Shown one piece after another: positions 10,760 through 35,745 of a stretch of 35,745 nucleotides of DNA. The translations under genes were made by a program, and so were the position numbers. The stretch is taken from assembly GCA_025356475.1 (NCBI GenBank), contig JANXSX010000006.1, positions 1-35,745 of the forward strand. Direction: 5' to 3'. Numbering within the stretch: the stretch's first letter is position 1; every line of letters begins with the position of its first letter. The notes below the pieces were generated by a model. The model ran no database searches, was not told where the DNA came from, and saw only the letters and a program-made list of their open reading frames with translations. This stretch comes from Isosphaeraceae bacterium (GTDB taxonomy: Bacteria > Planctomycetota > Planctomycetia > Isosphaerales > Isosphaeraceae).

Positions 10760-11815
10760 TCACCACTCTACGCCGAGCATCAAACAATTCAGCCCCGAAC
10801 CGATGCCGAGTAAGCCGACCCGATCGCCAGGGTTCAAAAATCCACGTTCTTCCGCGAGTGCCGCCGTCAGCGGGAGCGACACGGTGCCGATATTCCCGAG
10901 ATGAGAGAATGTCGAAAACGTCTTCGCAGCCTCAAGGCCGAGCATCTGCAAGATCGTGTCGCGATGCCCGATCCCCACCTGGTGGCAGATGACCTTATCG
11001 ACATGATCCGAGAGCCAGCCAAGTTTGCGGAGGAACGCAGCCCACGTCCGTGCGCCGAGGTCGACTCCATTCTTGAGCACCGCCACCGAATCCGTCGACA
11101 TATACTGCCCAAACGTGTCGAGTCCCAAACCGAGCGGCTTGATCACCTCAAGACCCCAGCGACAGAGGGCGTGAAACTGCGCCGCGTTCTGGGTCACGCC
11201 CCCCAGGAGCCGCCGGCGATCACTGCCGAATGAGCCGTCGGTGAGCAGCATGGCCACCGCACCCGATCCCCCGGTAAGCGTCGCGAGCGAGGTCTTGAAA
11301 AGTTCCATGCTGCGGTCGCGAAGCATCTTATCGATCATGATGTCGTTGATCTCGCGAGCAGTCTCGCAAGAGACAACAAGGCCTGCGCGAATCTGACCAA
11401 GTTCGATCCGGTTAGCTACGTCGATCATACCGTTCAGAACGCCCAAGCAGGCGTTGCTCAGGTCATAAACTGCGGCGTCGGAACTGATGCCGATCCCAGC
11501 GGCGACCCGGCAGGCGGTCGCGGGCTCGAATAGCTCGCGGCAGACACCGGCGTAGATCAAAACATCGACATCCCGGGGGTTGATGTCGGCCAGGTCGAGT
11601 GCGTGTTTTGCTGCGACCGTCGCACCTTCGGAGAGAGGATATCCCTCGTCCCACCAGCGCCGCTCGGTGATCCCGGTCAAGGCTTCGAGCTGACCCTTGG
11701 GGATGCGCAGAGTCTCGTACAAACCGGTCAATCGCGTTTCGAGTTCCGTCGAGGTCACGACCACGGGCGGGAGTTCGTAACCAATTGCATCGATAAAAAC
11801 TCGCGAATAATTCAT
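10760..11815 (-). CDS. oleA: OleA, head-to-head acyl-condensing thiolase
   Basis: OleA carries out a non-decarboxylative Claisen condensation of two acyl thioesters to a 2-alkyl-3-ketoacid, the first committed step to the olefin. The 351-aa protein has the KAS III/thiolase fold with Cys123 in LSNACLGVLNGM, His278 in VICHQVG, Asn308 in HLGNIGTVSLP, and Glu97 in ELFEPATA, the equivalent of the Glu that acts as base in the Xanthomonas enzyme. Its ATG overlaps the pfaC stop codon (ATGA), so it is translationally coupled to the PUFA synthase. This coupling suggests that it takes polyene acyl chains directly from that synthase, either as acyl-ACP or acyl-CoA; the donor form is an inference. Confidence 0.94.
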   Translation of the reverse strand: MNYSRVFIDAIGYELPPVVVTSTELETRLTGLYETLRIPKGQLEALTGITERRWWDEGYPLSEGATVAAKHALDLADINPRDVDVLIYAGVCRELFEPATACRVAAGIGISSDAAVYDLSNACLGVLNGMIDVANRIELGQIRAGLVVSCETAREINDIMIDKMLRDRSMELFKTSLATLTGGSGAVAMLLTDGSFGSDRRRLLGGVTQNAAQFHALCRWGLEVIKPLGLGLDTFGQYMSTDSVAVLKNGVDLGARTWAAFLRKLGWLSDHVDKVICHQVGIGHRDTILQMLGLEAAKTFSTFSHLGNIGTVSLPLTAALAEERGFLNPGDRVGLLGIGSGLNCLMLGVEW

Positions 11816-14800
11816 CGAGTCTCCGCGTCCAGCCGCAACGTAAAGTCTATCATCTGATACACTTGCCTACCATCGACGCTAAGGATACCGTCGGCCTTGA
11901 TGATCTTACGCTCGTCGTCAATCGCCGTAATCACCGCTTCCGTGGTCATCCACTGCGACGTCGGCAGGACTTGACCACGATAGACCCAGCGGTGCAGATC
12001 GCCGAGCCCCACCGATTCAAAGACGCTGGAGGGAGAGTCCCCCCACCGATCCGAAGCTATTACTTTAAGCGCTTGCTGCAATGATTCCAACCCCAACGAG
12101 CCCGGTACAACGGGGTCCTGATGGAAGTGAGCCTTGAAGAACCAAGCCGATGGGTCGACTCGCTTTGTGGCACGAAGGTAGCCAAAACCAGCGGGGCCGC
12201 CATCTGGGAGGTAGGCGTCGACTCTGTCGAGCATCCGCAAAGTGTCGTCTGGGAAAGGAAAACGGGTTGGGAATTCGAACGACTTGGCTAGGGAAAGCTC
12301 CCCCTCCGTGGGGCGAGCGAAGTTGACGTCCCGCAAGCCAACCTGGTCGGAGAGCGCCGCCTTGCTGAAGAATCCGAAGTACGTGTCCCCTTCATAGACC
12401 ACGCCCACTCGGTCGCGAACCTGGAAATCGTAATTCTGGATGATCATGCCCGCCGAGTGCGACACCTTGGTGATCTTGATCCGGGTGGTCAAGGTCCCCG
12501 ACTGCGAGTCGATCAGGCGGAATTGGGTCGCCGAGCCTCCCAAATTTCGGAACGAGAGGTCAATTTCACTGTTGAGTGCCGAACCCAGGTACGCAGCCAA
12601 CCAACCGCAGGGCTGAAGTGCGACCTCAAGCAAGATCCCGAAAGTCATTCTCGGTTGGCGGTCAGCCGTAAAGTACCATGCATCCGGGGGGACGTCGTAC
12701 TCCGCCTCGATCACCCCCCCCGTGACCATCTTCCAGGGGGCACAATCGATCTTGGTGATCCGGTCCAAAAACTGATACGGAGGGCCGGGTAGGCGAGCAA
12801 TTATCCGATCATGATCGAAGATCTTATAAGGATCTCCGAACGCATCGGACGGATTCCCAATTGCGAAAGCGGTGATCCTGTCGGTGTCGAAGAGGGGCTT
12901 ACTGGCGAGATTCGGCTGATCGGCCCAGAGCTGGCGAATGCGTTCGCGAGTCAGCCCGGTCATTCGCAGTGACATCTCACTGATTTCCACAATCGGTTTA
13001 CCATCCGCGAGCATGAGCGCGTCGCAGATCACGTAAGGCTCGGGCCGGTAGCCGATCTCCTTGATGGTGACCTCGTAGGTAACGACCCGGGTCGATTCGA
13101 TCACCTGCCCACGACACTTTAGCCGGCTGGCCACACCGGGAACGGGCTCGCAGACGGCCTCAGAAGATTCGCCAACCCAGCCCATTCGGGTCAAGAAGAT
13201 CCGAAGCGTATGTAAGCAACACTCATACATAAGTGTGCCTGGCATCACTCGGTCATCGACGAAGTGGCATGTCATGAACCAGGCGGAAGGATCAATATCG
13301 GCTTCTGCACGAATGAATCCCAGGCCGAATTTGCCCCCGTCGGGCTCGATCCGAGTGACCCGATCGACAAGTGTCATCAGCCCACCCGGTAGTCTCATCG
13401 GATGGACGATCTGCAAATTCGCAAATGAGTGGCCAAAGGCGGCGACCAGATTCCCCTCGCGAAGTGCCGCTATCTGTGCGTTGTTGAGAGCTTCGATCCT
13501 CATCGGCACGAATGTCTCACGCTCCGCAGGCCGAACCTTCGACCCCTCGCGAGCCACTGCCGGGGTGACGATTCCTTGGCCGGCGGCCAGCGCTGTCTCT
13601 GTAAAAAAGCCCGCGCAGCCGTCACTCATCGTTAAGAGAGGTTCACCATTCACCGTTCCTTCAAACCGGAATCGGAACAGATGGGCATCACCTTGTTGGA
13701 AGAAATGATCAATATGAATGTCGTAGTGGATCGTGTCGCCTGGTCCCGGCAGGCTTCGGTGGAAGGTTACGACAGCATCGAGCAATCGATAGACCGCCAA
13801 TCCTTTGGTGAGGAAGTCAATTCCGAGATAACCTGACAGAAAGAGGTCAGCCTGGCCAGACTCGACAGCAATGCAGGTGGGAATCCGACCGTTATCCAGA
13901 TACCAGCGATTTTCGTCAATGTCGTGTTCGGTAACAACCCGGCCACTTGTCATGGAACGGGCTTCGCCTTCAATACGCATGATGCGATCGACGAGCATCA
14001 AGGGTTCGTCCGGCAAGCGAACTCGCGTTGGGTAGGTGTCGATTAATGCGAACTCTGGGCCGAGGACCTTGGCAATCGATCCCACGGCGAATTCCAGACA
14101 GGCCAGGCGGTCGAGCTGAAGCTGAGGTCGAACGACCGCCGTAGGCTCGACCTGGCCGATGGCGACGCCAGCAAGGGCCTCGATCAGCTTCATCTGATAG
14201 GAAATCTGGTCGGACATCGACGTAGAAAAGTCGGCGGAGAGTTTGAGGTAGGCCTGATGGGCGTCCCCAACTGCTGTCGATGTCGACATCCACTGAGTTG
14301 AGATGCGATCAAGTGCTGGCATAGGAGTCTTTGAGGGCGGGCTCGGGAGTGGTAACGGAGTAGGATCTCTTTGAGCGACCGGTCTCGGCACGACAGGGGC
14401 TTCAACTCGCGTGGAAATCGTCTGTCGGGCGACGGGGATCGGAGGAATGACGAAGGGATCTCCTCCGACGGGTATTCTGACCATGCGTGCCGCGGTCGTC
14501 GTTGGAATGATTGCACTGGGCGACGAAAGTTTTGAGATATCGACATGTACGCGTTCTGAGATTAGTCGCCCCAACAGGCTCAATAGCCCCGCGACTGGCT
14601 CACCTTCGGCGGGCGTGGCACTCGCGGCTAGATGAGGACGCCCCGAAAGGATCGTGCTAATGATCCGGCTACACGAAGTTCCCGGTCCGATCTCCACAAA
14701 ATGGCGGACGCCATCAAGGTACGCCTGCTCGATCACTCTTGAAAAGTCGAAGCCGTGCAGAGCATGGTTGACGATCGATTCCGCAGCCGATTCTCTGGTT

Positions 14801-17800
14801 AACTCGAAGGAATTTTCAGAGAATCCGCCATAGAATCGCACATTCTTGGGAGGTGTTGTGTTCAAAAGGTGAAGATCACGATACTCGTGCGCGACCTCAC
14901 CGACGATTGGACAATGGACTGTTGAGACAATGGACAGAGGGATGAAGGCGACGCCCAAACGCGTGAGAATATGTTGAATTGCAGGTCGCTGTCCACCGAT
15001 GACCGTTTCTTCGGCGGAGTTCACGATAAGTCGATAAGCTCGCTCGATGCCTGAGAGCGCTCGATCGACCGATAAGGAAGAAGCGGGGACAATACCGGCG
15101 ACCCAGTCCACCGGCTCATCCAGCCCGAGTTTCCAGAATCGACGTGCCGCGTTGCACGGACCGGCAAGGTCGGTTGCGAACAAGCTTGAAGCGTCAAGGC
15201 GTTGGAGCATCACGTCGCGTTCAGTCCAGGCCTGAAGCGCGAAAAGGGCGGCAGTCTCACCCAAGCTATAGCCGATGGCGGCATTGGGTTCCACGCCCAA
15301 TATGCGGACAAGATCACTCACGAACGTGCCGAACGCGACCTGCCCGAGGATCGCTGCGCGATGATCCGGGAACGATGTCGGCAGGTCGCAATTCCACCAG
15401 GTTCCAGGCGCAAGTTGACTTTTGAGATGAAGATTCGATTGTTCTTGCTGGAGCAGGACCTCGGGCCAGTGCGCGGACAGTGCCCGGCCCATCCCAGCGA
15501 ATCCAGCGCCCGAGCCGGGGAACACGAACGCCACTTCTGCAGGCCCGATCGGTGTCGGATTGAAGAAGACCCGTTCGCTAGTTCGGTCGCGATGCCCCCC
15601 GGGGTCGCGAAGCCGCTTGCGAGCCTCAGCAAGTCGCCGATCCATTGGGACAGCGACTTCGGCGACGATCGACACAGCAAGCCTGGCGTCGGGCCGACGC
15701 GGGTGCAAAAGATCCCAGCGGGCCGCGAGTTGAACGATGGAGATCTCACGATCGAGCCCAACCAGTGTCTCAAGCTGATCAAGCCCCTGTTGGATTCCCT
15801 GCTCGTCATCGGCTTCGATCACGAGCAGAGACGCGGGGGGCTCACCCAACGCCGGTGGCCCATTGATCTCGAGTTTCGCTCGCACGGGCGATTCCGAGAG
15901 TCGAACTCGCATCGCGTTTTCGTCGAGCCCGTGAATGTCGACATGAGCACGCCTCGGCCCCTCCGACCGGTTGTGCAGCCAAAACTGGGTGTCGAGCGTT
16001 CCACCCACCCCGGGAGGTAGCAGGCAGGAGTCTAGGGCGAGGACCGCTCGACTGAGTGCAAGTAGCCCCGAGGCCGCTCCACCATAACCGACAAGGTCGT
16101 CAACAGGTGCAAAGCTGAGCGATTGATCTTGGCTGAGATCACACGCAAGTGCTGAAGTGTTATCGTCAACGGCTTCAATCACTGCAAGAATGTGGTTGTC
16201 ATCGTTCTGAGCATCGACAAGCCGCTTGAGCACGAGTGTGACGGAAGCGTCGGCACCGGCGATGGGAAGTCCCAACTTCGCACGAGCGAGCGTCAGTCGC
16301 GGGTCATTCGCCAGGTCGACGGCCCCCACGATCGCGTCATCGATCTCGCCTTGTGCAAGCATCTGGCTAGCGATTTTGAGAGCCTTTAGCCCCGATGTCT
16401 CATCCGCAGAAACGGTAAAGCTTGGCCCACCGATCCGGAACTCGCGTGCAAGTCGACTGGCGACGATCCCCCCCAATGCCCCCATCGTTCGATCGGCTGT
16501 CAGTGCGGGACCTGTCGCCTCACGAATTTCGTCGGCCCACTCGGCTACCTGCGCTGGATCGAGTCCCAGGTTCAGCTTTAGATTCCAGTCAGTGACCGAA
16601 TCACCCAGAGACCAGCGAACATGAAAGTTGGTGCTGTTGAGGTCGAGCCCGATTCCCACGAAAACGCCGGTCCGGAGCCTCGGTTCTGAACCAGTCCAGC
16701 CGGCCTGTTCGATCGCCGCTGAGGCTGTCTCCAGCATTAATGCCTGTTGGGGAAGCATCGTTTCAAGTTCCTTGGGGGGAATTCGAAACTGTCCTGCGGG
16801 GAGGTCGACCTCCAACAAGGGTGAGCCTAATGGATGCGTCGATGTTGCGCCGAATGTTGAAGGATCGACCCCCCACCAGCGAGAACCTCGGTCGTCGGCG
16901 TCGCGAGTTTGTCCCGACAGGAGCCGGGCACGAACTTCGTCACGTGTTGCGTCTGCCCCGAGGTGTGCTCCCAACCCGACGATTGCAATCTGACAGTGTG
17001 TGCGATTGGGTAGGGTCTCAGAACTTAAAGCAGGAAGATATTCTTCAATGATGGCATGAGCGTTAATACCACCGAACCCGAATCCACTAATGGCCGCCTT
17101 ACGTGGGCTCCCGTCCTCAGGCTGGGGCCAGGACTCAGCTTTGGTTAGGACTCGAAATGGCGTGCCAGCCTCCGCTAAGGCTTGGGCAGGTTTGAGGAAG
17201 TTAGCAGTCGGGGGGAACGTGTGATGCCGGATCGCCAGCAGGACCTTGAGGAGGCCAGCCGCATTTGCTGCGGTAAGAGCGTGGCCAATATTGGATTTAA
17301 CCGATCCGAGCACGCACCTTTTCGAGGTCTCCTCGTCCCAGAGTGCGTGAAGACTAGCAAGCTCGACGGCGTCGCCCACGGGGGTCCCGGTTGCGTGACA
17401 TTCGATCAGATCGATCTCATTGGGTCGCCAATTTGTCTGATTGTAGGCAGCCCGCATCGCCCTGAGTTGCCCTTCGGAGCTAGGGGCAAGCAAGTTGCCT
17501 TGAACATCATTGGAGAGACTGATCCCAGCGATAACGCCGTGGATTGTGTCGTGGTCGCGGACCGCGTCACTCAGCCGCTTAAGGATGAACATTCCTGCAC
17601 CTTCGCCCACGACCAACCCATCGGCATCTGCAGACAAGGGTGAGGCTTTGCCGCGTGGGGAGAGGGCGCGGAGTTGGGAGAATCCCATCTGTGTGTAGAG
17701 CGGGTCGGGACGAGAGAGTCCCCCTGTGATCATCGCGTCGGCTCGACCGGACAGAAGTTCGTCGGCGGCGAGCTTGAGAGCGTACAGGGACGAGGCGCAG

Positions 17801-18366
17801 GCGGCATCGAGCGTAAAAGTTCCCCCACCCAGGCCTAGGTCTAGGGCGATCAGGTGGGCGGGAAGCCCAGCGGGCAAGGCATTCCAGGGCTCGAATGGAG
17901 CTTGCGAATGAGGTGTTAACCCCAGCTTCGCCTCGAAGGCACCACCGAGAACCGACCGGGCGATTGCGGAGGCCGTCTCGGTTGGCAAGATCAAATGACC
18001 GATGATCACACCTACACGCGTGCAATCGATGTTGGACGTCTGGGCGGACTCCCAAGCCTGGCGGGCAGCGTGCATTCCCAGGAGATATGCAGGGTCGAGT
18101 CGCTTGAGCAGATCTGGATCGACATGATGTCGGTTGGGGTCGATCTGAAAATTGGTGACGAATCCCCCTCGGGTCGCATAAACCTTGTCGGGTTGACCGA
18201 TACGTGGGTCGAAGGCGGATTCGGGCGTGAGACTCCAGCGGCCCTCGGGGACCTGGGTCGTGGAATCGATACCGGCTGCGATGTTTGACCAGAATTGATC
18301 AAGGTCTCGCGCTCCCGGGAAAATCCCACCGAGCCCGACGATCGCTACGCGTTCGGTCGATGCCAT
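11812..18366 (-). CDS. pfaC: PfaC-type PUFA synthase subunit, KS-CLF-AT-DH-DH
   Basis: A 2184-aa multidomain subunit of a PUFA synthase. The KS (about 5-445) has Cys190 in DAACASS, His324 in ECHATGTP and His362 in KSNIGHA. The second KS-like domain (about 455-760) is a chain-length factor: the active Cys is replaced by Glu656 in SADETSG. The AT (about 940-1240) has Ser1034 in GYSLGE and ends with HFVEIGPG. A Pro-rich linker leads to four hot-dog repeats (about 1445-2180), two FabA-like dehydratase/isomerase pairs, with catalytic His in CHFVDDRVMPG and AHFHQDPVVPG. The embedded AT makes this resemble myxobacterial Pfa3 more than marine PfaC, but the C-terminal glycerophosphate acyltransferase of Pfa3 is absent. 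ATG at 18366 preferred; an in-frame TTG at 18426 would overlap pfaA. Confidence 0.92.
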   Translation of the reverse strand: MASTERVAIVGLGGIFPGARDLDQFWSNIAAGIDSTTQVPEGRWSLTPESAFDPRIGQPDKVYATRGGFVTNFQIDPNRHHVDPDLLKRLDPAYLLGMHAARQAWESAQTSNIDCTRVGVIIGHLILPTETASAIARSVLGGAFEAKLGLTPHSQAPFEPWNALPAGLPAHLIALDLGLGGGTFTLDAACASSLYALKLAADELLSGRADAMITGGLSRPDPLYTQMGFSQLRALSPRGKASPLSADADGLVVGEGAGMFILKRLSDAVRDHDTIHGVIAGISLSNDVQGNLLAPSSEGQLRAMRAAYNQTNWRPNEIDLIECHATGTPVGDAVELASLHALWDEETSKRCVLGSVKSNIGHALTAANAAGLLKVLLAIRHHTFPPTANFLKPAQALAEAGTPFRVLTKAESWPQPEDGSPRKAAISGFGFGGINAHAIIEEYLPALSSETLPNRTHCQIAIVGLGAHLGADATRDEVRARLLSGQTRDADDRGSRWWGVDPSTFGATSTHPLGSPLLEVDLPAGQFRIPPKELETMLPQQALMLETASAAIEQAGWTGSEPRLRTGVFVGIGLDLNSTNFHVRWSLGDSVTDWNLKLNLGLDPAQVAEWADEIREATGPALTADRTMGALGGIVASRLAREFRIGGPSFTVSADETSGLKALKIASQMLAQGEIDDAIVGAVDLANDPRLTLARAKLGLPIAGADASVTLVLKRLVDAQNDDNHILAVIEAVDDNTSALACDLSQDQSLSFAPVDDLVGYGGAASGLLALSRAVLALDSCLLPPGVGGTLDTQFWLHNRSEGPRRAHVDIHGLDENAMRVRLSESPVRAKLEINGPPALGEPPASLLVIEADDEQGIQQGLDQLETLVGLDREISIVQLAARWDLLHPRRPDARLAVSIVAEVAVPMDRRLAEARKRLRDPGGHRDRTSERVFFNPTPIGPAEVAFVFPGSGAGFAGMGRALSAHWPEVLLQQEQSNLHLKSQLAPGTWWNCDLPTSFPDHRAAILGQVAFGTFVSDLVRILGVEPNAAIGYSLGETAALFALQAWTERDVMLQRLDASSLFATDLAGPCNAARRFWKLGLDEPVDWVAGIVPASSLSVDRALSGIERAYRLIVNSAEETVIGGQRPAIQHILTRLGVAFIPLSIVSTVHCPIVGEVAHEYRDLHLLNTTPPKNVRFYGGFSENSFELTRESAAESIVNHALHGFDFSRVIEQAYLDGVRHFVEIGPGTSCSRIISTILSGRPHLAASATPAEGEPVAGLLSLLGRLISERVHVDISKLSSPSAIIPTTTAARMVRIPVGGDPFVIPPIPVARQTISTRVEAPVVPRPVAQRDPTPLPLPSPPSKTPMPALDRISTQWMSTSTAVGDAHQAYLKLSADFSTSMSDQISYQMKLIEALAGVAIGQVEPTAVVRPQLQLDRLACLEFAVGSIAKVLGPEFALIDTYPTRVRLPDEPLMLVDRIMRIEGEARSMTSGRVVTEHDIDENRWYLDNGRIPTCIAVESGQADLFLSGYLGIDFLTKGLAVYRLLDAVVTFHRSLPGPGDTIHYDIHIDHFFQQGDAHLFRFRFEGTVNGEPLLTMSDGCAGFFTETALAAGQGIVTPAVAREGSKVRPAERETFVPMRIEALNNAQIAALREGNLVAAFGHSFANLQIVHPMRLPGGLMTLVDRVTRIEPDGGKFGLGFIRAEADIDPSAWFMTCHFVDDRVMPGTLMYECCLHTLRIFLTRMGWVGESSEAVCEPVPGVASRLKCRGQVIESTRVVTYEVTIKEIGYRPEPYVICDALMLADGKPIVEISEMSLRMTGLTRERIRQLWADQPNLASKPLFDTDRITAFAIGNPSDAFGDPYKIFDHDRIIARLPGPPYQFLDRITKIDCAPWKMVTGGVIEAEYDVPPDAWYFTADRQPRMTFGILLEVALQPCGWLAAYLGSALNSEIDLSFRNLGGSATQFRLIDSQSGTLTTRIKITKVSHSAGMIIQNYDFQVRDRVGVVYEGDTYFGFFSKAALSDQVGLRDVNFARPTEGELSLAKSFEFPTRFPFPDDTLRMLDRVDAYLPDGGPAGFGYLRATKRVDPSAWFFKAHFHQDPVVPGSLGLESLQQALKVIASDRWGDSPSSVFESVGLGDLHRWVYRGQVLPTSQWMTTEAVITAIDDERKIIKADGILSVDGRQVYQMIDFTLRLDAETR

Positions 18367-18412
18367 CCTGAGTCTCGTGCGGGGATTGTTGCGACCACGA
18401 ACCGTGCTGGTC

Positions 18413-21400
18413 TCAGTGGGCGTCAAACTGGGCAGTGCGGTTGCGGCGGAATGCCTGGTTCAGCGATTGATCAATCACGCATTGATAATCATCGATTCGT
18501 GCGATCAATGCACCTGTCGTCGTGTTGAGGAATTCAATGTCGGCCACGGCTCGATGAGCCCCCGACTCGGTGACACGGGCGACGATGCGAACGCCATCGG
18601 TGGGGAAGCTCCGCTCGAATTGCCGGTACCGACCGATGATCGTGGGAAGTGAGCCTGCCCCGAAGCGTTCCACGCTCCAGAGGATAAGCAACTGGAAGGC
18701 TCCGTCGATCACCAGGGGGTCGGTCAACCAGCTCTGACGTAAGGGTTTGTCGATCCAGGTCGAAGGTGCAGGGGCCGACGAAACCCTGGCGACGATACCA
18801 TTCTCGCCACATCCCTCGATCGCTCGGATGCACTGGAGGGCAGGGCCATGAAACAACACGTCGCGGTAGACTTCACGAGGGCTGAGGGCATAAGTCGGCA
18901 AGGTCAGATCGTCGAGAGCAGGAACTTCGGACGGGTAAGCATCCGTCAACACAACTTCTGCCCGAGCATGCAGCACGTCTCGCCCGTCTGCAAGTTTCCC
19001 GCGAAGTTCGACCGGAACGACGGAGACATCGTCTTTGCGGATCGCCTTGCCAGCGACCACACGGACCGTCTCGGCAGCCCCTTCGCGAACAATCACACCT
19101 TTCAGTAGCTTTAACTCATCAATACCAACGCATACCAACCCAGGATGCTTATGGAGCGCTCCTTGAGCGAGCCATTCGAGGATCAGGGCGAGCGGAAGCA
19201 CGGGGCGACCGTCGATCACATGCGAATGCAATACAGGCATCGTTACGAGATCAAGCGTCCGTTCGAATACGGTCGAATAACTCGTAGTGATATGACCATT
19301 CGTTGGGGCTGATTTGGGACCAGGCTCGGCAGGCTGTGTCGGCTCAAGGATTTTCGCAGTGGGGACGATCGAGCCAGCGCCGAGGACAACGACCTCGACT
19401 GCGGCGTTGGGTATCTCGTGGAGTGACTCGACAAGGAACCGTGCGCCCGAGGAGAGGGGGATGAGTTGGATCCCTTCGGCCAGGAAGTGAGGCTTGAGTG
19501 CGACGGTCACCATCCCACCGTTCCAGGGGCCCCAGTTGGCCGCAAGGACCCGGCAGTTTGGCCGACGCCTGGCCTCGGCTTGGGCCAGCTTATTCATCAC
19601 TTCGTTTGCGGCGGAATACGCCACCTGGCCCGTACGACCGAATCGCGCGGTCGACGATGAGAAAACAACGAACGCTTTCAAGTCATCATCTTGAGTTGCG
19701 CTCACAAGTGCCCGGAGTCCGTGTACCTTTGTTTCATAGACCTTGAGGAATTGTTCATCCGTTTGATCAACGATCGATCGATCTGCGAGCACCCCAGCGC
19801 CATGAACGAGCCCACGGATCGGCCCGAACTCAGCGCGAATCTGGCTGAGAACATTGGCGACCGCATTGGAGTCACGGACGTCGACCGATCGGTAGATTGC
19901 CTTCGCACCGAGAGCCTCAATGGCGTGGAGTGTGGTCACAACCTCGCGATCGGCAGCAATTCGCCGGAATTCGTCCCCGACCGCTTGAAGCGTCGTATGC
20001 CCGTTACCTCGACTGATCAACTCGCGTTTGATCTCCGATTCCTTGCTGAGTTGGGTCAGCCAAACGGGCTCTTTTTGAGGCAAGGAACTCCGACCGAGCA
20101 GGACCAACGTCGGCTGGAACGCTTGAGCAAGGGCGATCGCCACAGCGGCCGTCACCCCTCTCGCACCGCCACTCACGACCATCACGTCCCCACGTTTGAT
20201 ACTGGACGAGCCGAGTTCGCGAACCTGCGGCCTTAACTCGATCCCAAAAAGACCAGATTGGCGAATTCCCACCTCGACCGGGCCAGTTGAGCCAAGGATC
20301 GCAAGGATCAGGTCCGCAGCTCGAGATGGCTCGATATTGATATCAAGATCAATCACCTTACTCGTCACTTCGGGCCACTCACAGGCGGCCGTCTTAGCAA
20401 GCCCTGCGAAGCCTCCCGAGAGAGGGTCAGTGAGAGTGGTGGCGGATCCCCCGAAGCCAAACCCACCGTCGAGATGTTCGACCAGAGCGAGAATCCCTTG
20501 AGCCTTGCGCAGACCAGGGGCGGCGGCACGTACAAAGCGAAACGCATCGAGAATCGAGTGGTCCTGAGTGCCACCCGATGGCGGAAGGATCAAGAGGCCG
20601 GCCAAATGCTCGGGACAGTGAAGTTCGCCGCTATCCTTGAGATTGAACTGTCTGAGATGAACACTAGAGGATTCTAGATTCGAGGACAGGTTCGATGCCA
20701 ATAAGGATTCGTCACCGATCAGCCAGAACTCACCGCTCTTGAGCTTGTCGGCGAGTCGTTGGTTCAGGACCAACGGCGACAGTGTTGGTACAAGGCTCAA
20801 GACATCGGCTTCGACCTGTTCGGGCTGGACGACGGGGGTCGTGGACGGGACCGGCGGAGCGGTTTCCGTCGTTCCCCCGTTCAGAAAGTCTGCGATCTGG
20901 CCCAAGGTTCGGATCGTGCCGAGATGCTCTGGACCTAGCACAGGGGCGTGGGGCAGGCGTTCTTGAACCGCTGCGAGGATCTCGACGCGCTTGATCGAAT
21001 CGATCCCGAGATCAGCGTCGAGCTGCATTGTCGGTTCGAGAACTTCGATCGGATACCCCGTCTTGTCGGCAACCACTTCCATCAACACAGAGGTGATCGA
21101 GTCATTTGGAGGGGATTGAGAGGCGACAGCAACAGGCGGGAGATCAGCCCCCAAGAACTCCGCAATCTGGCCGAGGGTTCGGATCGTACCCAGGTGCTCA
21201 GGCCCGAGGAGAGGCGCCTTGGGCAGCCGTTCTTGGACCGCAGCCAGGATTTCAACCCGTTTGATGGAGTCGATACCAAGGTCGGCGTCGAGCTGCATTG
21301 AGGGTTCGAGAACATCGACCGGGTAGCCGGTCTTATCGGCAACCACTTCCATCAAGATACGTCGGACGTGGTCATGATCGGTCGCGACCGGCTGTCCAGC

Positions 21401-24400
21401 GGGATGTTGAGTTGAGCCCGCGCTCAGGAACTCGGCAATCTGACCAAGCGTCCGGATCGTGCCGAGGTGCTCGGGTCCAAGAAGCGGAGCGTTTGGCAAT
21501 TTCTCCTGGACAGCCGCGAGGATCTCGACCCGTTTGATGGAGTCGATGCCAAGATCGGCGTCGAGCTGCATCGAGAGTTCGAGAACCTCACTGGGATATC
21601 CGGTCTTATCGGCAACAACAGATCTCAACACTTCTTCAACTTGTGAGATGCTTACGTCAGTAAGTGCCGGTGCCGGTGCCGGTGCCGGCAGTTGACGTTG
21701 GGGAGCGATCGGGGTCGGTCGGGGGATGACCGGGGCGGGCGTCCTGGCCACGACCGGTTCTGGGTGAGCGACTGGCTGTACGTATGCAGGTCGGGTTTCG
21801 ATCGCAGCGGGCAGGGTTGGCATCGAAATGCCAAGTCCGAGACTTGAGAGTGTTAGCGTCTGTTGATGTTGGAGCAGCGATTGGAAACTGCGCTGGGCAA
21901 TATCTTGCCCTTCGAGGAACTGACGATGGAGCGACGCCGTTTGCTCAGCGACTTTTTGAAGAGCGACGAGGTTCTCTTGCGCGGTCCTGAGTGCATCGGC
22001 GACGAAGCTAGACGAGGCCGGCGCGACCCGGGGTGGCGACGACGGCGGAATCGCAACCGGGGTGGTGGATGGGCTTGTCACGACTCGGGGCGGAGGCTGA
22101 GGGGCAGTCATGGTGGGGCCGGCGACAGGGGGGCGAGGCGTAAAGGGCTGAGGCGCGGGGGTCGGATGAGCCCCCGAGACCGGCACGGTGAGGGAAGGCT
22201 TGCGGGCTGGAGCGGGCGTGGAGGCGAAGGGGTGATCCCAGGCGGTGAGTCGCACCGAATGCCCAAGGGCGGAGAGGTGACCGAGAGTCCGCGCGAGATC
22301 AACTAGGCCAGGGCGGGTCCCTCGTGAGGCGTCCAGGGCAAGGGCGGTGTGCTCTTGGCCTGCCAGAATCGCACTCACCATCCCCGTCAATTTGCTATCG
22401 GGACCGACTTCCAGGAAGGTTGTCGAGCCGGCGAGCGACATCGCCTCAACCTGGCGGACGAACTCGACAGGCGAAGCAAGTTGGTTCGCAAACAAGTGCT
22501 TCGTATCCGCACTTGAATCAGGATATGTTGTGGCAGTTGTGTTGGAGTAAACAGGAATTCGCCCATGGGCCATGTCCACATGAGCAAGTTCCTGCAAGAG
22601 TGGCCCCGCAGCGTCCGCCACAAGTTCGCTGTGAAATGCAGCCGACACCGCAAGCTTGCGAGTCTTCATGCCCAACTGTTGCAGGACCTGGTCCGCTCGT
22701 TCGATTGCTGACTTCACGCCAGACAAGACAACCTGAGCAGGTGTGTTCACATTCGCGAGGGTGACATCCAATTGGTGCGATGCGATCGCAGCCTTGACCT
22801 CGGCGATCGGTGCGAGCACGGCGAGCATCGCGCCTCGATCGCCCGACTGTTCCGCCATGAGCCGACCTCGGACCCTCGCAACTCGATGAAACTCAGGAGG
22901 AGTGAGTCGACCGGCGGCACACAGGGCGGTCAGTTCACCAAAACTATGGCCACCGACCATGACGGGCACGACGCCAAACGAGTGGAGAACTCCGAGCATG
23001 CTCAGGCTGACCGCCCCGAGTGCCGGCTGAGTTGCGTCCGTGGCACGGAGCGCGAGTTCTTGATCAGCCTTAGCCTCGGCGGTGTATGCCGAGGTAGGAT
23101 AGATCAAGTTGTTCAGGGATATGGAGTGGATCGGCCCCAACGCATTGGCATCAGTGACCGACTGCATCGCTTGAGGGAAGAAACAGGTGAGGTCACGTCC
23201 CATCCCTACATATTGCGATCCCTGTCCAGGGAAGAGGAATGCCAATTGGCCGCGAGCTGGGCCGCACCCGTAATAGATCCCATCAGGGTGGCTTGCAAAC
23301 GGCTTGCCCTTGGTGGAGTCGATCAATGTGATCGCACGCTCAACCAGTTTCGCAATGTCGGAGACCCCCCGATCGACAACCAGGATGAGACGCTCGGCGT
23401 CCTCAACCCGAAAGCTTGCCCGAGATTCGGCGGCAACTCGGCGGAACTCCGACTCTTTGAGAGCCGTCGTGAGAGGCTTGAGCTTGAGCTTGAGCTTTAA
23501 TCCCTGCGAATTTGAGGCGGAGAAGGCCAGGATCTGGGTTGCGCCGTCCCAGGGCGCTTCGGGGAGCGTCGCATCGACTTCTTCCAGAACACAGTGGAAA
23601 TTACTGCCCCCAAATCCAAAAGCGCTCACTGCTGCCCGACGCGGATGGTCAGCGCTGGGCATCCAAGGGCGACTCTCGACGTTCACATAAAACGGAGAGC
23701 TCGGCTCGGCAAGGATCTCGGTTGGGGTCGTGATTTTTGCAGTCGGTGGGATCACTTTATAATGGAGTGCCAATGCCGCTTTGATCAGCCCGGCGACTCC
23801 GGCGGCGGCCTTGGTGTGGCCGATTTGCGACTTGACCGAGCCGACCGCACACCACTTGTCCGACCGACCGGTCGAGCGGTAGACCTGATCGAGCGCCTTG
23901 AGTTCGGTGGCGTCCCCGACTTTGGTCCCGGTCCCGTGGGCTTCGACCATTTCGATCGTGGCCGGCGAGACATCGGCAATTGCATAGGCTTGCCGGAGCG
24001 CTTTGGCCTGACCAGCGGCCACCGGGGCGTAAACGGCTTGTCCTTTGCCGTCGCTGGAGGAGCCAACTCCTTTGATGACCGCGTAAATTTTGTCGCCGTC
24101 ACGACGGGCGTCATCGAGCCGCTTGAGGGCCAGAATTCCCAGGCCTTCCCCGAGGATCGTGCCATCACCACTTGCGTCAAAGGGACGCGCATCACCTGTG
24201 GGTGAAAGTGCAGGTGTTTTACTGAAGCACATGTACATGAAAATGTCGTTAAACGTATCTAGCCCACCGGTCAGCACCATATCGGAGCGACCGGTGGCGA
24301 GTTCGAGGAGGGCCAGGTGGAGGGCTCCTAGCGAGCTGGCGCAGGCGGCGTCGATCACGCAGTTGGTGCCGCCCAGGTCCAATCGGTTGGCGATGCGTCC

Positions 24401-24973
24401 AGCGGCGACGTTGCCGAGTAGACCCGGGAACGAATTCTCCTGCCAACCGACATAGCTATTAGCAATCCGATCGACAACTTCGTCGGCAATTGGGCCAGTG
24501 ATCCCCGACGCGGTGAGAGCCCGCCTCCAGATGGGATGGCCCAGTCGAGCCCCCAGCGGGATCACCAATTCCAGGGTTCCCGTCACACCCAAGATGACGC
24601 TGACCCGGTCCCGATCGAACTCGCGCGAACCACCGTAGCCCGCGTCATCGAGCGCGGCCTTGGCGACCATTAGGCCGAGCAGTTGAGTTGTGTCGGTGGC
24701 ATCGATATTTGCAGGGGCGATGCCGTAATCAAGCGCTGGGAAATCGACGGGGCTGAGGAAGCCCCCCCGGCGTGCATATGTATGGTCGGGGCTCTTGGGA
24801 TCGGCGTCGTAATAGTCTTCGACCCGCCAGTGGGTTGCCGGAACCTCGGTTATCGCATCAACACCATTGCGGATGTTGGACCAGTACGTGGCGAGATCGC
24901 CCGCCTTGGGGAACAGGCAGCCAATGCCGATGATCGCTACCGGTACCGAGGGGGTCTTATCGGCCGAATTCAA
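18413..24973 (-). CDS. pfaA: PfaA-type PUFA synthase subunit, KS-AT-ACP3-KR-DH
   Basis: A 2186-aa iterative synthase subunit. The KS (about 8-465) has Cys211 in DAACASS, His346 in EAHGTGT and His386 in KSQIGHTK. The malonyl AT (about 575-880) starts at FPGQGSQ and has Ser677 in GGHSFGE. A Pro/Ala-rich linker (about 930-1105) leads to three tandem ACPs, each with LGIDSIKR; the phosphopantetheine serines are Ser1145, Ser1236 and Ser1326. The KR (about 1590-1850) has VVSGGARG and a catalytic Tyr near 1786 in AYSAANE. A polyketide-type DH with HVIDGRPVLP (about 1917) ends the protein. This is the standard PfaA order with fewer ACPs than the five or six of marine gammaproteobacteria. The start is TTG at 24973 with aaggaa upstream; no ATG fits. 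Confidence 0.95.
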   Translation of the reverse strand: MNSADKTPSVPVAIIGIGCLFPKAGDLATYWSNIRNGVDAITEVPATHWRVEDYYDADPKSPDHTYARRGGFLSPVDFPALDYGIAPANIDATDTTQLLGLMVAKAALDDAGYGGSREFDRDRVSVILGVTGTLELVIPLGARLGHPIWRRALTASGITGPIADEVVDRIANSYVGWQENSFPGLLGNVAAGRIANRLDLGGTNCVIDAACASSLGALHLALLELATGRSDMVLTGGLDTFNDIFMYMCFSKTPALSPTGDARPFDASGDGTILGEGLGILALKRLDDARRDGDKIYAVIKGVGSSSDGKGQAVYAPVAAGQAKALRQAYAIADVSPATIEMVEAHGTGTKVGDATELKALDQVYRSTGRSDKWCAVGSVKSQIGHTKAAAGVAGLIKAALALHYKVIPPTAKITTPTEILAEPSSPFYVNVESRPWMPSADHPRRAAVSAFGFGGSNFHCVLEEVDATLPEAPWDGATQILAFSASNSQGLKLKLKLKPLTTALKESEFRRVAAESRASFRVEDAERLILVVDRGVSDIAKLVERAITLIDSTKGKPFASHPDGIYYGCGPARGQLAFLFPGQGSQYVGMGRDLTCFFPQAMQSVTDANALGPIHSISLNNLIYPTSAYTAEAKADQELALRATDATQPALGAVSLSMLGVLHSFGVVPVMVGGHSFGELTALCAAGRLTPPEFHRVARVRGRLMAEQSGDRGAMLAVLAPIAEVKAAIASHQLDVTLANVNTPAQVVLSGVKSAIERADQVLQQLGMKTRKLAVSAAFHSELVADAAGPLLQELAHVDMAHGRIPVYSNTTATTYPDSSADTKHLFANQLASPVEFVRQVEAMSLAGSTTFLEVGPDSKLTGMVSAILAGQEHTALALDASRGTRPGLVDLARTLGHLSALGHSVRLTAWDHPFASTPAPARKPSLTVPVSGAHPTPAPQPFTPRPPVAGPTMTAPQPPPRVVTSPSTTPVAIPPSSPPRVAPASSSFVADALRTAQENLVALQKVAEQTASLHRQFLEGQDIAQRSFQSLLQHQQTLTLSSLGLGISMPTLPAAIETRPAYVQPVAHPEPVVARTPAPVIPRPTPIAPQRQLPAPAPAPALTDVSISQVEEVLRSVVADKTGYPSEVLELSMQLDADLGIDSIKRVEILAAVQEKLPNAPLLGPEHLGTIRTLGQIAEFLSAGSTQHPAGQPVATDHDHVRRILMEVVADKTGYPVDVLEPSMQLDADLGIDSIKRVEILAAVQERLPKAPLLGPEHLGTIRTLGQIAEFLGADLPPVAVASQSPPNDSITSVLMEVVADKTGYPIEVLEPTMQLDADLGIDSIKRVEILAAVQERLPHAPVLGPEHLGTIRTLGQIADFLNGGTTETAPPVPSTTPVVQPEQVEADVLSLVPTLSPLVLNQRLADKLKSGEFWLIGDESLLASNLSSNLESSSVHLRQFNLKDSGELHCPEHLAGLLILPPSGGTQDHSILDAFRFVRAAAPGLRKAQGILALVEHLDGGFGFGGSATTLTDPLSGGFAGLAKTAACEWPEVTSKVIDLDINIEPSRAADLILAILGSTGPVEVGIRQSGLFGIELRPQVRELGSSSIKRGDVMVVSGGARGVTAAVAIALAQAFQPTLVLLGRSSLPQKEPVWLTQLSKESEIKRELISRGNGHTTLQAVGDEFRRIAADREVVTTLHAIEALGAKAIYRSVDVRDSNAVANVLSQIRAEFGPIRGLVHGAGVLADRSIVDQTDEQFLKVYETKVHGLRALVSATQDDDLKAFVVFSSSTARFGRTGQVAYSAANEVMNKLAQAEARRRPNCRVLAANWGPWNGGMVTVALKPHFLAEGIQLIPLSSGARFLVESLHEIPNAAVEVVVLGAGSIVPTAKILEPTQPAEPGPKSAPTNGHITTSYSTVFERTLDLVTMPVLHSHVIDGRPVLPLALILEWLAQGALHKHPGLVCVGIDELKLLKGVIVREGAAETVRVVAGKAIRKDDVSVVPVELRGKLADGRDVLHARAEVVLTDAYPSEVPALDDLTLPTYALSPREVYRDVLFHGPALQCIRAIEGCGENGIVARVSSAPAPSTWIDKPLRQSWLTDPLVIDGAFQLLILWSVERFGAGSLPTIIGRYRQFERSFPTDGVRIVARVTESGAHRAVADIEFLNTTTGALIARIDDYQCVIDQSLNQAFRRNRTAQFDAH
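20867..21646 (-). repeat. Three tandem acyl carrier protein repeats within pfaA
   Basis: Three units of about 270 bases (approximately 21646-21410, 21373-21137 and 21103-20867) encode near-identical ACP domains with serines 91 and 90 residues apart. Strings such as gtcggcgtcgagctgcat recur almost unchanged in more than one unit. This indicates recent duplication or continuing gene conversion. The linkers between units are short and more variable. Confidence 0.9.
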
Positions 24974-24988
24974 GGGACTGATTCCTTC

Positions 24989-25001
24989 GGTTCGTCGAAC
25001 C
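24989..25001 (-). promoter_or_regulatory. Small hairpin just ahead of the pfaA ribosome-binding site
   Basis: ggttcg and cgaacc form a 6-bp inverted repeat around a single base in the 75-base pfaD-pfaA gap, a few bases before the aaggaa site and the TTG start. It may modulate pfaA translation; it may also be chance. Confidence 0.25.
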
Positions 25002-25048
25002 AGACGGCGGGCTAGGAGATCGGCAACGTCGGTTGGAGGGTGATTTAA

Positions 25049-26644
25049 TCAGGCAGAGAAGGGGGCCAAACGCGTGTCGAGTTCGGTCCGAGACAAAGGA
25101 GAAAGCCTAGGGACACTCGCCGGCAGAGCGATGCCCTGGACTTGCAGCAGTTGGGCACGGATCAGAACCGCAGCGCCATAGAGCAGGTTGCGGGCGACGT
25201 CGGCCACATGCCGCGACTCAGGGCGTTCCAGTTCCGATCCTTTGACCCACTCATTGAACGCGGCCATGGCGGGCCCACACCAGACTTGATAATCAACCGC
25301 GCGCCCTACCTCGCCCGAATTCGCCCAGTGCGAGCTTTGACCGAGATACCATCGGAAGCAAAGCGCCATCTTGTGTCGAGGCTCGCGCTCGGCCCGTTCG
25401 ATCTGGCGAGGGTCGCGCCGCTCGAAGTAGCTGCGAGTTTGCTCCCAGATCGTGGCCAATGGGGCGCGAAACACGGTCTTTTCCAAGGAGGCTCGCTCGG
25501 TTGCGGGGATCTGGTCGATCGACTCGCAGGAGCGATAGAGTTCGTAGAGCTTGGCGGCACGCATGGCGAACATTGTACCACGCTTGAGGACCTGGACCTT
25601 CACACCCATCTCAAACATATCCGCAGCGGGTGCCATCGCGATATCGGCTTGCTGCGCCTGGCAGAGCATGGTCCGCACTGTATCCGAGGTGCCGGATTCC
25701 ACACACGACTGGTGGACACTGCCGACCACCAGATAGTCGGCACCCATTGCGAAGGCGGCGGTCGCTGACCACGGGGTCGCGATCCCGCCGGCAGCCCCGA
25801 TGCGGACAGGGTTGTCGAAGCCAAATTCGCGCTGGAGGCGGTTCCGGAGTGAGATCATGGTTGGGATCAGAACGATGGCCGCCTGATTGTCGGTGTGGCC
25901 GCCGGAGTCGGCCTCTGCGGTCAGGTCGTCGGCCATCGGAACGTATTCCGCCCAGTTCGCCTGTTCAGGCGTGATTTGGCCCGATTCGACGAGTGGTTTC
26001 AACAGGCGACTTGGAGCCGGTGCCAGAAACTTGGCGGCGACTTCCACACGTGAAACCTTGGCCATTACTTTGTTGTCGGCCACGATCGTACCCGACGGCT
26101 CACGACGTAGTCCTGCGGCTCGGTATCGTACGACCTGGGAGGTCAGATCAAGGTAGGCGGAGGCTTCAACCAGCCGGATCTGATGTTTGAGATAAAGGTC
26201 AACCACGGCCGATTCGAGGTCGGGCTCATTGGGGCTATGAATCAGGTTGAAGCCAAAGGGGGACGAGTTCCCTAGCGAACTCTGGAGGCGAGTGATTGCC
26301 GCCTCAACGCGCGGGATTGGCAGTCCGGCGGCTCCGAAAATGCCGAGCATGCCGGCCTTGCCCATGGCTTCGGCAATCTCGACCGAACCAATCCCGTTCG
26401 CCATCGCGCCCGAGACATAGGCATACTTGAGCCCATGGTCGCGACGAAAGCTGGCGCTACCGATCTGTTCGGGATTGACGGGGGGCAGGTATCCGAGCAC
26501 CCGATCGACATCGGTAGGAGGGGTGGATGGGTCACCCTCGGCGAACTCGACCGCTCCGCCGCGTTCGACGATCCAAAAGGGGTCGCGAACCCGTTCGATC
26601 GCTCGCTCCAAGGTCTCAGCGTGCGTCGTCGGGACCACCACCAT
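25049..26644 (-). CDS. pfaD: PfaD-type trans-acting enoyl reductase
   Basis: PfaD is an FMN-dependent enoyl reductase of the nitronate monooxygenase/FabK superfamily. It works in trans on acyl chains held by the PfaA ACPs and decides where double bonds are saturated. The 531-aa protein has the family's N-terminal YVSGAMANGIGSVEIAEAMG, then SSPFGFNLIHSPNEPDLE, the flavin-phosphate region RIGAAGGIATPWSATAAFAM, and GADYLVVGSVHQSCVESG. The C-terminal third (FRWYLGQSSHWANSGE) is characteristic of PfaD and missing from FabK, so the call is specific. The ATG at 26644 starts the operon. The next upstream gene, purN, ends 287 bases away on the same strand, so the operon promoter is expected in between, unless there is read-through. 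Confidence 0.94.
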   Translation of the reverse strand: MVVVPTTHAETLERAIERVRDPFWIVERGGAVEFAEGDPSTPPTDVDRVLGYLPPVNPEQIGSASFRRDHGLKYAYVSGAMANGIGSVEIAEAMGKAGMLGIFGAAGLPIPRVEAAITRLQSSLGNSSPFGFNLIHSPNEPDLESAVVDLYLKHQIRLVEASAYLDLTSQVVRYRAAGLRREPSGTIVADNKVMAKVSRVEVAAKFLAPAPSRLLKPLVESGQITPEQANWAEYVPMADDLTAEADSGGHTDNQAAIVLIPTMISLRNRLQREFGFDNPVRIGAAGGIATPWSATAAFAMGADYLVVGSVHQSCVESGTSDTVRTMLCQAQQADIAMAPAADMFEMGVKVQVLKRGTMFAMRAAKLYELYRSCESIDQIPATERASLEKTVFRAPLATIWEQTRSYFERRDPRQIERAEREPRHKMALCFRWYLGQSSHWANSGEVGRAVDYQVWCGPAMAAFNEWVKGSELERPESRHVADVARNLLYGAAVLIRAQLLQVQGIALPASVPRLSPLSRTELDTRLAPFSA

Positions 26645-34057: not shown

Positions 34058-34858
34058 TCAAAGTTCCGAATCGGGCAGATGTGGTGCCCCGCCTTGGTCG
34101 TTGATCTCATCTGTCTCGTTTTGAGAGGATGTTGAGTCTGGATTTGCGGGCTTGGGCAGGGTCTTCAAGCGTTTCTCGGACTGATCTTTCAGCTTTTCCA
34201 GACTTCGGATCCGCCGCTCGCGGCTCGAAACTTCGCGTTCCCACTTCGTAAGTTCCTTATCGGCCACGTGGAACTCGCCTTGCATGGCTCGCTGGTGCTG
34301 CTCGTGGTTCTCGTCCTTAAGGACCTCCACGCAGGCTTGGAGATCTTCGAGTTGCTCCAGGATCAGTTTTCGGATTTGGGTCCGAGCCTTTTCGAGCCAG
34401 TCGGGCTCCTCTTGGTGGAGATGATCGGGGTCGAAGGGGTACGAACTATTGTCGAGCCACTCATCGCGTGGAACCCCCAGGAGTGCGAGCGCCTTCTGTC
34501 GAGGCCCCAGTGCAAGGACCCCTGTGAACTTCTCGGACTCGACCAGCCCGAGCAGGAGTCGCCATCGCTCGATCAGATAGATGGTCCCGTGAGCCGTCGT
34601 CTTGAGCCGAGCCACGACCATCCCCGGCTGCCTCATGATCCTCAGGGCCAGCTTCTCCACCCGATCCCGCTGATCCACATCCCAAAGCTTTTCCACCCGA
34701 CGAGCCAACCAATCCCGCCGCTCTTGGGCTTTCCTAGAGGCACGCCCGAGGTATGCACGCTCGATAACGAGAGCCTCGGCATAATGACGAAAGGACAGAT
34801 CCGGGAACGCCTTCAATAAGGCATCGGAGTGGCAAGAGCAGATTCTGAGTGACATCAT
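34058..34858 (-). CDS. Hypothetical protein with C-terminal coiled coil
   Basis: A 266-aa protein that I do not recognise. The first half is rich in Arg, Lys and aromatic residues (AEALVIERAYLGRASRKAQE, then RRDWLARRVEKLWD) and mostly helical. A stretch with GTIYLIERWRLLLGLVES follows. The last ~100 residues are strongly charged with heptad-like spacing (ILEQLEDLQACVEVLKDENH, SRERRIRSLEKLKDQSEKR), predicting a coiled coil, and the end is polar and disordered. There is no signal peptide or membrane segment. The start is uncertain: ATGs at 34858 and 34855, or upstream in frame at 34885, 34921 or 34981, none with a good ribosome-binding site. It lies next to the tRNA-His 3' end and before restriction-modification-type remains, so it may belong to an acquired segment. 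Confidence 0.6.
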   Translation of the reverse strand: MMSLRICSCHSDALLKAFPDLSFRHYAEALVIERAYLGRASRKAQERRDWLARRVEKLWDVDQRDRVEKLALRIMRQPGMVVARLKTTAHGTIYLIERWRLLLGLVESEKFTGVLALGPRQKALALLGVPRDEWLDNSSYPFDPDHLHQEEPDWLEKARTQIRKLILEQLEDLQACVEVLKDENHEQHQRAMQGEFHVADKELTKWEREVSSRERRIRSLEKLKDQSEKRLKTLPKPANPDSTSSQNETDEINDQGGAPHLPDSEL

Positions 34859-35282
34859 CGTAGTCCCGTAAAAGAGGTGCAACATCGCACTTTCTGAAAA
34901 TTTGATCGGCTTGCGGTACATCGGGGCTTTGGGATATCTGGAAATTTTGCTGGGATTGTTCGTTTGATTACTATGAATCATGTTGGCATATTAGGTTTTG
35001 ATTGCGGCTATTTATCCCAGCGGTTGTCGCGCGTAGGAGAGTTGCGGATTGCCCAAATTCCCCCATCGCCCGTTCTGCGTCGAGTACTCGGAGGGCCCCC
35101 GCTGGCCTTCTCCCGATAGTGGAGACAGAACTTGGCATAGGGTTCCCGCCCGATCCGCCTGAACTATCGGAGCCAAATTTGCTCGGGGCAATAGGCAAAG
35201 CAGGTGACTTCTTGTACCGTTTTCAAATGATGCGGTCGCTGTCTTTTGTGTTAACGTTTCAGTTCTCGCGACTTGTTTGGGG
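34859..35282. other. No recognisable gene
   Basis: About 420 bases without a credible coding region. Short open frames exist on both strands in the GC-rich part (35000-35200), but none has a ribosome-binding site or a family-like sequence. From about 35220 the DNA becomes clearly richer in A and T than the rest of the window. Confidence 0.55.
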
Positions 35283-35627
35283 ATCGTCAAATTGATTGTC
35301 ATCCGCATCGTGTATTCCCTGCGTTATTGTCACAGGTAGCATTGTCGGACCTTACGAGGCAACATGAAACTGGTTTTCTAGAGTTTCCACTTGGTAATCT
35401 TGATCCATGTTTGTTTTTGGCATCGTCATGGCATTGGTTGGACCCTAATGCGGATTTCTAAATCGAGGTTGGAGTTTTGGACTGAGAAACTGGAGAACAA
35501 CGATCGACCTGATCCGGAAAAGCGGGCGTCATTGCATGCCATTGACTGGGATTTCTTGATTATTTGGGAATGTGAGTTGAATGATCTAGATGGCTTGGTC
35601 GTTCCTGTTCATGATTTCTTAGGACGA
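35283..35627 (+). pseudogene. vsr: Decayed very-short-patch repair endonuclease (vsr) remnant
   Basis: Vsr nicks DNA 5' of the T in T:G mismatches that arise by deamination of 5-methylcytosine. One frame reads VILIHVCFWHRH, then LEFWTEKLENN, then LIIWECELNDLDGL and HDFLG. This aligns in order with the Vsr core (GCFWHxHxC, EFWxxKxxxN, VxWECxL). The same frame upstream gives LRGNMKLVF where Vsr has LPGxPDxVF with the catalytic Asp, but there it is interrupted by TAG at 35337-35339 and 35379-35381. The catalytic Asp and one zinc-ligand Cys (the C after CFWHxH) are lost. The frame has no stop before the window ends, although Vsr should end near 35627. It lies directly upstream of a C5-methyltransferase, the usual partner. 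Read as a pseudogene, not an active enzyme. Confidence 0.65.
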
Positions 35628-35632
35628 TGCCG

Positions 35633-35745
35633 ATGCGTACGCTTGAATTATTCGCTGGTGCGGGTGGGTTGGCCCTGGGGATCTCCAGGGCTGGCTTTCG
35701 GCATTCGGCAGTGCTTGAGAAAGACAGGAACGCATGCGAGACCAT
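35633..35745 (+). CDS. C5-cytosine-specific DNA methyltransferase (N-terminus, cut by window edge)
   Basis: Only the first 37 codons are present. They read MRTLELFAGAGGLALGISRA followed by GFRHSAVLEKDRNACET, which contains motif I of C5-cytosine methyltransferases (FAGAGGLALG, the S-adenosylmethionine loop) and motif II (the acidic residue in VLEKD). These enzymes methylate cytosine at C5 within a short recognition sequence, as orphan (Dcm-like) or restriction-partner enzymes. The ATG at 35633 has agga 8 bases upstream; an in-frame ATG at 35627 is too close to it. The catalytic PCQ motif and the target-recognition domain lie outside the window, so specificity and intactness cannot be judged. 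It follows a decayed vsr. Confidence 0.85.
   Translation, partial: MRTLELFAGAGGLALGISRAGFRHSAVLEKDRNACET

Follow-up and report, generated by a model that had tools for sequence, protein, structure and literature searches.

The closest described systems to the locus presented here are the restriction-modification systems of the Eco29kI type, which are associated with the sequence CCGCGG. The methyltransferase M.Eco29kI methylates the second C of this sequence (PMC3039593). Moreover, CCGCGG m5C restriction-modification systems accompanied by a Vsr-like V element have been described (PMC10855626), and a gonococcal Vsr has been assayed on a CTGCGG/CCGCGG substrate (PMC6116569).

The nearest relatives of our locus share the gene order vsr, C5-methyltransferase, and GIY-YIG endonuclease of the Eco29kI family. 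One of them, found in a genome of the same bacterial family (G027), encodes in this order Vsr (135 aa), the methyltransferase (387 aa), and an RE_Eco29kI endonuclease (PF09517, 117.7 bits), with an ATGA common to the stop of vsr and the start of the methyltransferase gene. We examined 81 loci in which Vsr comes first, i.e., 80 loci plus that of G027, counting a methyltransferase at an identity of at least 50%. The three genes occur in order in 25 of them, vsr and the methyltransferase occur with no endonuclease detected in 8, and 48 have other arrangements. The G027 methyltransferase also shares 52–54% identity with its counterpart on plasmid pECO29, which adjoins the Eco29kI endonuclease there.

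The locus described here lies at the end of contig C79, which is the whole window, i.e., the stretch of 35,745 bases that was analysed, in a genome of 5.9 Mb that is assembled in 232 contigs and is 99.98% complete. The vsr relic and the start of the methyltransferase gene lie in the last 460 bases of this contig, and the features of the region are the following:

34982–35288, no strand: spacer, the would-be site of the vsr N-terminus, none of which is detectable in the part tested (35121–35290)
35289–35624, + strand: decayed vsr frame of 112 codons, aligning with no indel to residues 24–135 of the intact 135-aa relative L031
35337–35339, + strand: first in-frame TAG, at a column that is a 92%-conserved Leu
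35361–35369, + strand: lost catalytic motif region, N-M-K here and x-P-D in relatives, with Lys in the catalytic Asp column
35379–35381, + strand: second in-frame TAG
35621–35624, + strand: AGGA, a putative ribosome-binding-like sequence, 8 nt upstream of the ATG at 35633
35625–35627, + strand: expected stop of vsr, now CGA; in L031 it is the TGA of the ATGA overlap with the methyltransferase start
35627–35745, + strand: start of the C5-cytosine methyltransferase gene, truncated where the contig ends; its ATG is that at 35627 or 35633

Compared with the Eco29kI-type systems that have a V element, our locus has a pseudogene in place of vsr and a methyltransferase truncated at the end of the contig, and no endonuclease is seen in it. 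The Eco29kI system of pECO29 is like our locus in the lineage of its methyltransferase and in having no functional vsr, but its endonuclease gene comes first and no remnant of vsr was found in it. The C5-methyltransferase that adjoins the relic belongs to the M.Eco29kI lineage, sharing 72% identity with the G027 protein over its 39 codons, and the pair would represent, judging by its relatives, the first part of a cassette made of vsr, a C5-methyltransferase, and an Eco29kI-type endonuclease, with a CCGCGG specificity predicted by homology. The preliminary description of this DNA had spoken of a Dcm-Vsr pair, which in its E. coli form joins a solitary CCWGG methyltransferase to vsr; judging by the nearest relatives, which are accompanied by an Eco29kI-type endonuclease, this label should give way to that of an Eco29kI-type cassette. 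We consider it probable that the locus is a vsr pseudogene heading a former type II restriction-modification cassette of this type, which comprised vsr, the C5-methyltransferase, and the endonuclease.

The frame at 35289–35624 on the forward strand is a true vsr relic. It is 49% identical to the intact Vsr of G027 over 112 residues with no indel (E 4e-31), and it scores 107 bits with a Vsr profile built from 83 sequences, namely those of the 80 Vsr-first loci plus G027, G015, and G004, one of which (L056) is broken by a stop; with the same profile, the best score among 500 Markov-shuffled copies of the stretch, each read in six frames, was 6.0. Membership in the Vsr family (PF03852 / TIGR00632) is also indicated at the curated cut-off, since a whole-genome profile search with stops read through places PF03852 at 35292–35429, with two TAG codons inside, at 27.5 bits against a cut-off of 27. 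The profile named in the preliminary description therefore does recognize the frame, and the core motifs listed there (CFWHxH, EFWxxK, and WECEL) are present in order as CFWHRH, EFWTEK, and WECEL. The span given there, 35283–35627, was right in pointing to a real relic and slightly too wide for the frame that is supported. The closest solved structure to the intact G027 Vsr is that of E. coli Vsr (PDB 1cw0, 1vsr, 1odg), which has the same conserved motifs, whereas the copy in the window carries two stops and is missing its N-terminus as well as the catalytic Asp and one of the zinc-binding Cys residues.

The same frame is a pseudogene that has decayed past function. At the 35 columns with at least 90% conservation in the 83 rows, it retains 20 residues and has the other 15 replaced; among the other Vsr rows, the median retention is 1.0, the lowest value is that of the broken L056 (0.03), and the second lowest is 0.886. 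The replaced residues include those that correspond to the catalytic Asp and a Glu of the E. coli enzyme (in the 83 rows, 98% conserved and, as rounded, 100% conserved, respectively), both of which are now Lys, as well as one of the zinc ligands expected from the E. coli structure (Cys, His, Cys, and Cys), of which three out of four are kept and one Cys has become Trp. Also replaced are the Gly of HGCFW and the Pro-x-x-Pro that precedes the Asp. The N-terminus, about 23 residues, is undetectable at 35121–35290 even with frameshifts allowed, as 203 of 300 shuffles do equally well, and the same search works on an intact control (70 versus 11.6). At the opposite end, the relative has CTAGGATGACG where the window has TTAGGACGATG, so that GGA-TGA has become GGA-CGA and the stop is gone. 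Hence, with two TAG codons, no N-terminus found, and no stop, the frame has no uninterrupted reading. The two TAG codons, the loss of the catalytic Asp region and of one zinc ligand, and the missing stop at the expected end had all been pointed out beforehand, and each is borne out by these comparisons. The composition of the frame has drifted too: its GC is 0.438, against 0.59 in the methyltransferase start alongside and 0.57 in a sample of the genome, and its GC at codon positions 1 and 2 is 0.46 and 0.33, against 0.56–0.66 and 0.40–0.50 in six relatives.

Since the vsr frame falls in the last 460 bases of the contig, one might ask whether its stops are errors of sequencing or assembly in a gene that is intact. 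We reject this reading as very improbable, because errors would have to account for the many replaced residues (15 of 35, including the Glu, the Pro-Asp, and the zinc Cys), the undetectable N-terminus, the lost stop, and the drifted codon-position GC, while the 117 bases after the frame, even nearer to the contig end, are without such damage. Even less credible, and likewise rejected, is that a Vsr protein is made by decoding TAG as an amino acid: both in-frame stops are TAG, as is the one in the broken vsr of Rubripirellula obstinata (L056), but of 15 larger ORFs of the window that were checked, two end in TAG, and the catalytic Asp, one zinc Cys, and the N-terminus are absent regardless of how TAG is read. 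The R. obstinata gene (L056, 4929–5306) is another vsr, otherwise well conserved, with its single in-frame TAG near the start; the stretch fetched around it has no match to an Eco29kI-type methyltransferase.

Regarding the second gene of the pair, the frame from 35627 matches the C5-methyltransferase family PF00145 at 31–32 bits, although only 39 codons precede the contig end. These codons keep 12 of the 12 columns that are 90% conserved among 39 aligned unbroken orthologs (40 were found, and one with an internal stop was set aside). The vsr relic indeed adjoins a C5-methyltransferase start, as had been proposed. The retention of conserved residues, 12/12 here versus 20/35 in vsr (Fisher p 0.005), lends support to the view that the methyltransferase may have been under selection after vsr was not, and is not proof of it, as the two proteins are different and only 39 codons are compared. 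An intact Vsr elsewhere in the genome was sought and none was found in the assembly with PF03852 at E 0.001, the match described here being the only one.

Taken jointly, these observations make it reasonably probable that vsr went off selection before the methyltransferase, that the latter is functional now or was so recently and starts at its own ATG, and that very-short-patch repair is gone from the cell. The vsr frame has lost its N-terminus, gained two stops, and lost catalytic and zinc-binding residues together with its stop codon, and most likely gives no DNA-cutting product. The methyltransferase, if complete, would start at the ATG at 35633, with AGGA 8 nt upstream, or at 35627, uncoupled in either case from the stop of vsr, and the T:G mismatches arising at its sites would presumably be left to general repair. 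The stronger proposition, that the cell has an active CCGCGG C5-methyltransferase and has lost every Vsr, is one that we put forward tentatively.

Opposed to a functional methyltransferase, though compatible with the vsr pseudogene, is the possibility that the whole cassette is dead, with the methyltransferase also broken past the contig end, for instance through an insertion, and this would also account for the break in the assembly at that point. Searches with the profile and with the G027 protein did not find the remainder of the methyltransferase elsewhere in the assembly, and no RE_Eco29kI (PF09517) endonuclease was found in it, the contig ending before the expected place of this gene. 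That both are missing from an assembly that is 99.98% complete speaks for a dead cassette, as do the neighbouring ORF, which is of a dispersed and partly decayed family with some copies at contig ends, and the frame break in a second C5-methyltransferase, on contig C65. Conversely, the 39 codons keep all 12 of their conserved residues and have a GC of 0.59, unlike vsr, and the last 29 bases of the contig occur a single time in the genome with up to three mismatches allowed, with no shared contig end seen. We therefore hold the death of the whole cassette to be a possible but somewhat doubtful outcome.

The gene on C65 is no continuation of the truncated methyltransferase: it belongs to another subfamily, and its identity to the G027 protein is 24% in the part that matches. 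This second C5-methyltransferase (G000:C65, L016, 535–1696, reverse strand) is broken into two frames close to its N-terminus and lies on a 3.6-kb contig; in the relatives G013, G028, and G036, methyltransferases of its subfamily are followed by a Vsr-like gene.

The ORF next to the spacer (34058–34981, reverse strand) encodes a 307-aa protein with no Pfam or NCBIfam family above the cut-off. It has 28 matches in its own genome at E 1e-5, itself included, many of them with internal stops and several at contig ends, and 10 of the 12 copies fetched share DNA with at least one other, at 71–91% identity and over up to 1.2 kb. This family has the appearance of an element that is dispersed in the genome and decaying. 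The two copies tested show no clear terminal inverted repeats, and REP-like palindromes lie near two copies. Elsewhere in the window, 11812–26644 on the reverse strand likely holds polyunsaturated fatty acid synthase genes, namely:

11812–18426, − strand: FabA-rich synthase
18413–24973, − strand: PfaA-like protein (TIGR02813, 1525 bits, over the cut-off)
25049–26644, − strand: NMO plus FabD-insert protein

If the methyltransferase acted without Vsr, C-to-T mutation at methylated sites should be raised, and the preliminary description had made this prediction. Words were counted against a Markov expectation in a 292-kb sample of the genome, made of the window and the starts of contigs C1–C20 (at most 20 kb from each). 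CTGCGG, the product of deamination, shows no excess in these 292 kb, with an observed/expected ratio of 1.07, close to those of three relatives (1.01 in G027, 0.90 in G018, and 0.99 in G022), so that the prediction finds no backing in what is a weak test. CCGCGG itself is rare, its ratio of 0.29 being the fourth lowest of 61 palindromes, and its ratio is 0.71 in G027, where the system is intact; in G018 (0.35) and G022 (0.65), the methyltransferase has no match at E 1e-20. However, the reversed word GGCGCC is rarer still in the same genome (0.21), and this, together with the ratio of 0.35 in the methyltransferase-less G018, means that the avoidance of CCGCGG is not specific and is no proof that the system acted here. 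In the window and the sampled contigs of this genome (G000), G027, and G022, CAGCTG is almost absent, with, counting both strands, 2 observed versus 87 expected in G000, 2 versus 49 in G027, and 10 versus 96 in G022.

Cassettes of this kind that have no vsr are common. Of 37 plasmid records with an Eco29kI-type methyltransferase, 12 were opened and their flanks, up to 1.5–3 kb, were searched by tblastn: vsr is present in four (H2, H3, H8, and H9), and neither vsr nor a significant remnant was detected in the flanks of the other eight (H1, H4, H5, H6, H7, H10, H12, and H19). Among 392 genomes of the phylum, the methyltransferase occurs in two (E 1e-40), both with an upstream vsr match that is full-length. 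Cytosine methyltransferases have also been noted in genomes without a vsr gene (PMC12907096); these genomes and ours have in common a C5-methyltransferase sequence with no functional vsr found, and differ in that here the relic is still readable beside the methyltransferase. The locus had been called an informative intermediate in the decay of the pair; because vsr-less cassettes are common, such an intermediate is not exceptional, and the window seems to offer a mid-way view of what is commonly met as an end point.

What the locus records is the ordinary decay of a gene within a restriction-modification cassette of a known kind. It is a clear case in which a methyltransferase cassette, of a type that occurs naturally with and without vsr, has lost its repair gene and, since methyltransferases without vsr are already known, it leaves the general understanding of these systems unchanged, while it may serve as a data point on how such cassettes shed vsr. 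If the methyltransferase is indeed active in a cell with no Vsr, this lineage would be a natural test of the effect of m5C on a genome without very-short-patch repair, with the relic of the lost gene still readable.
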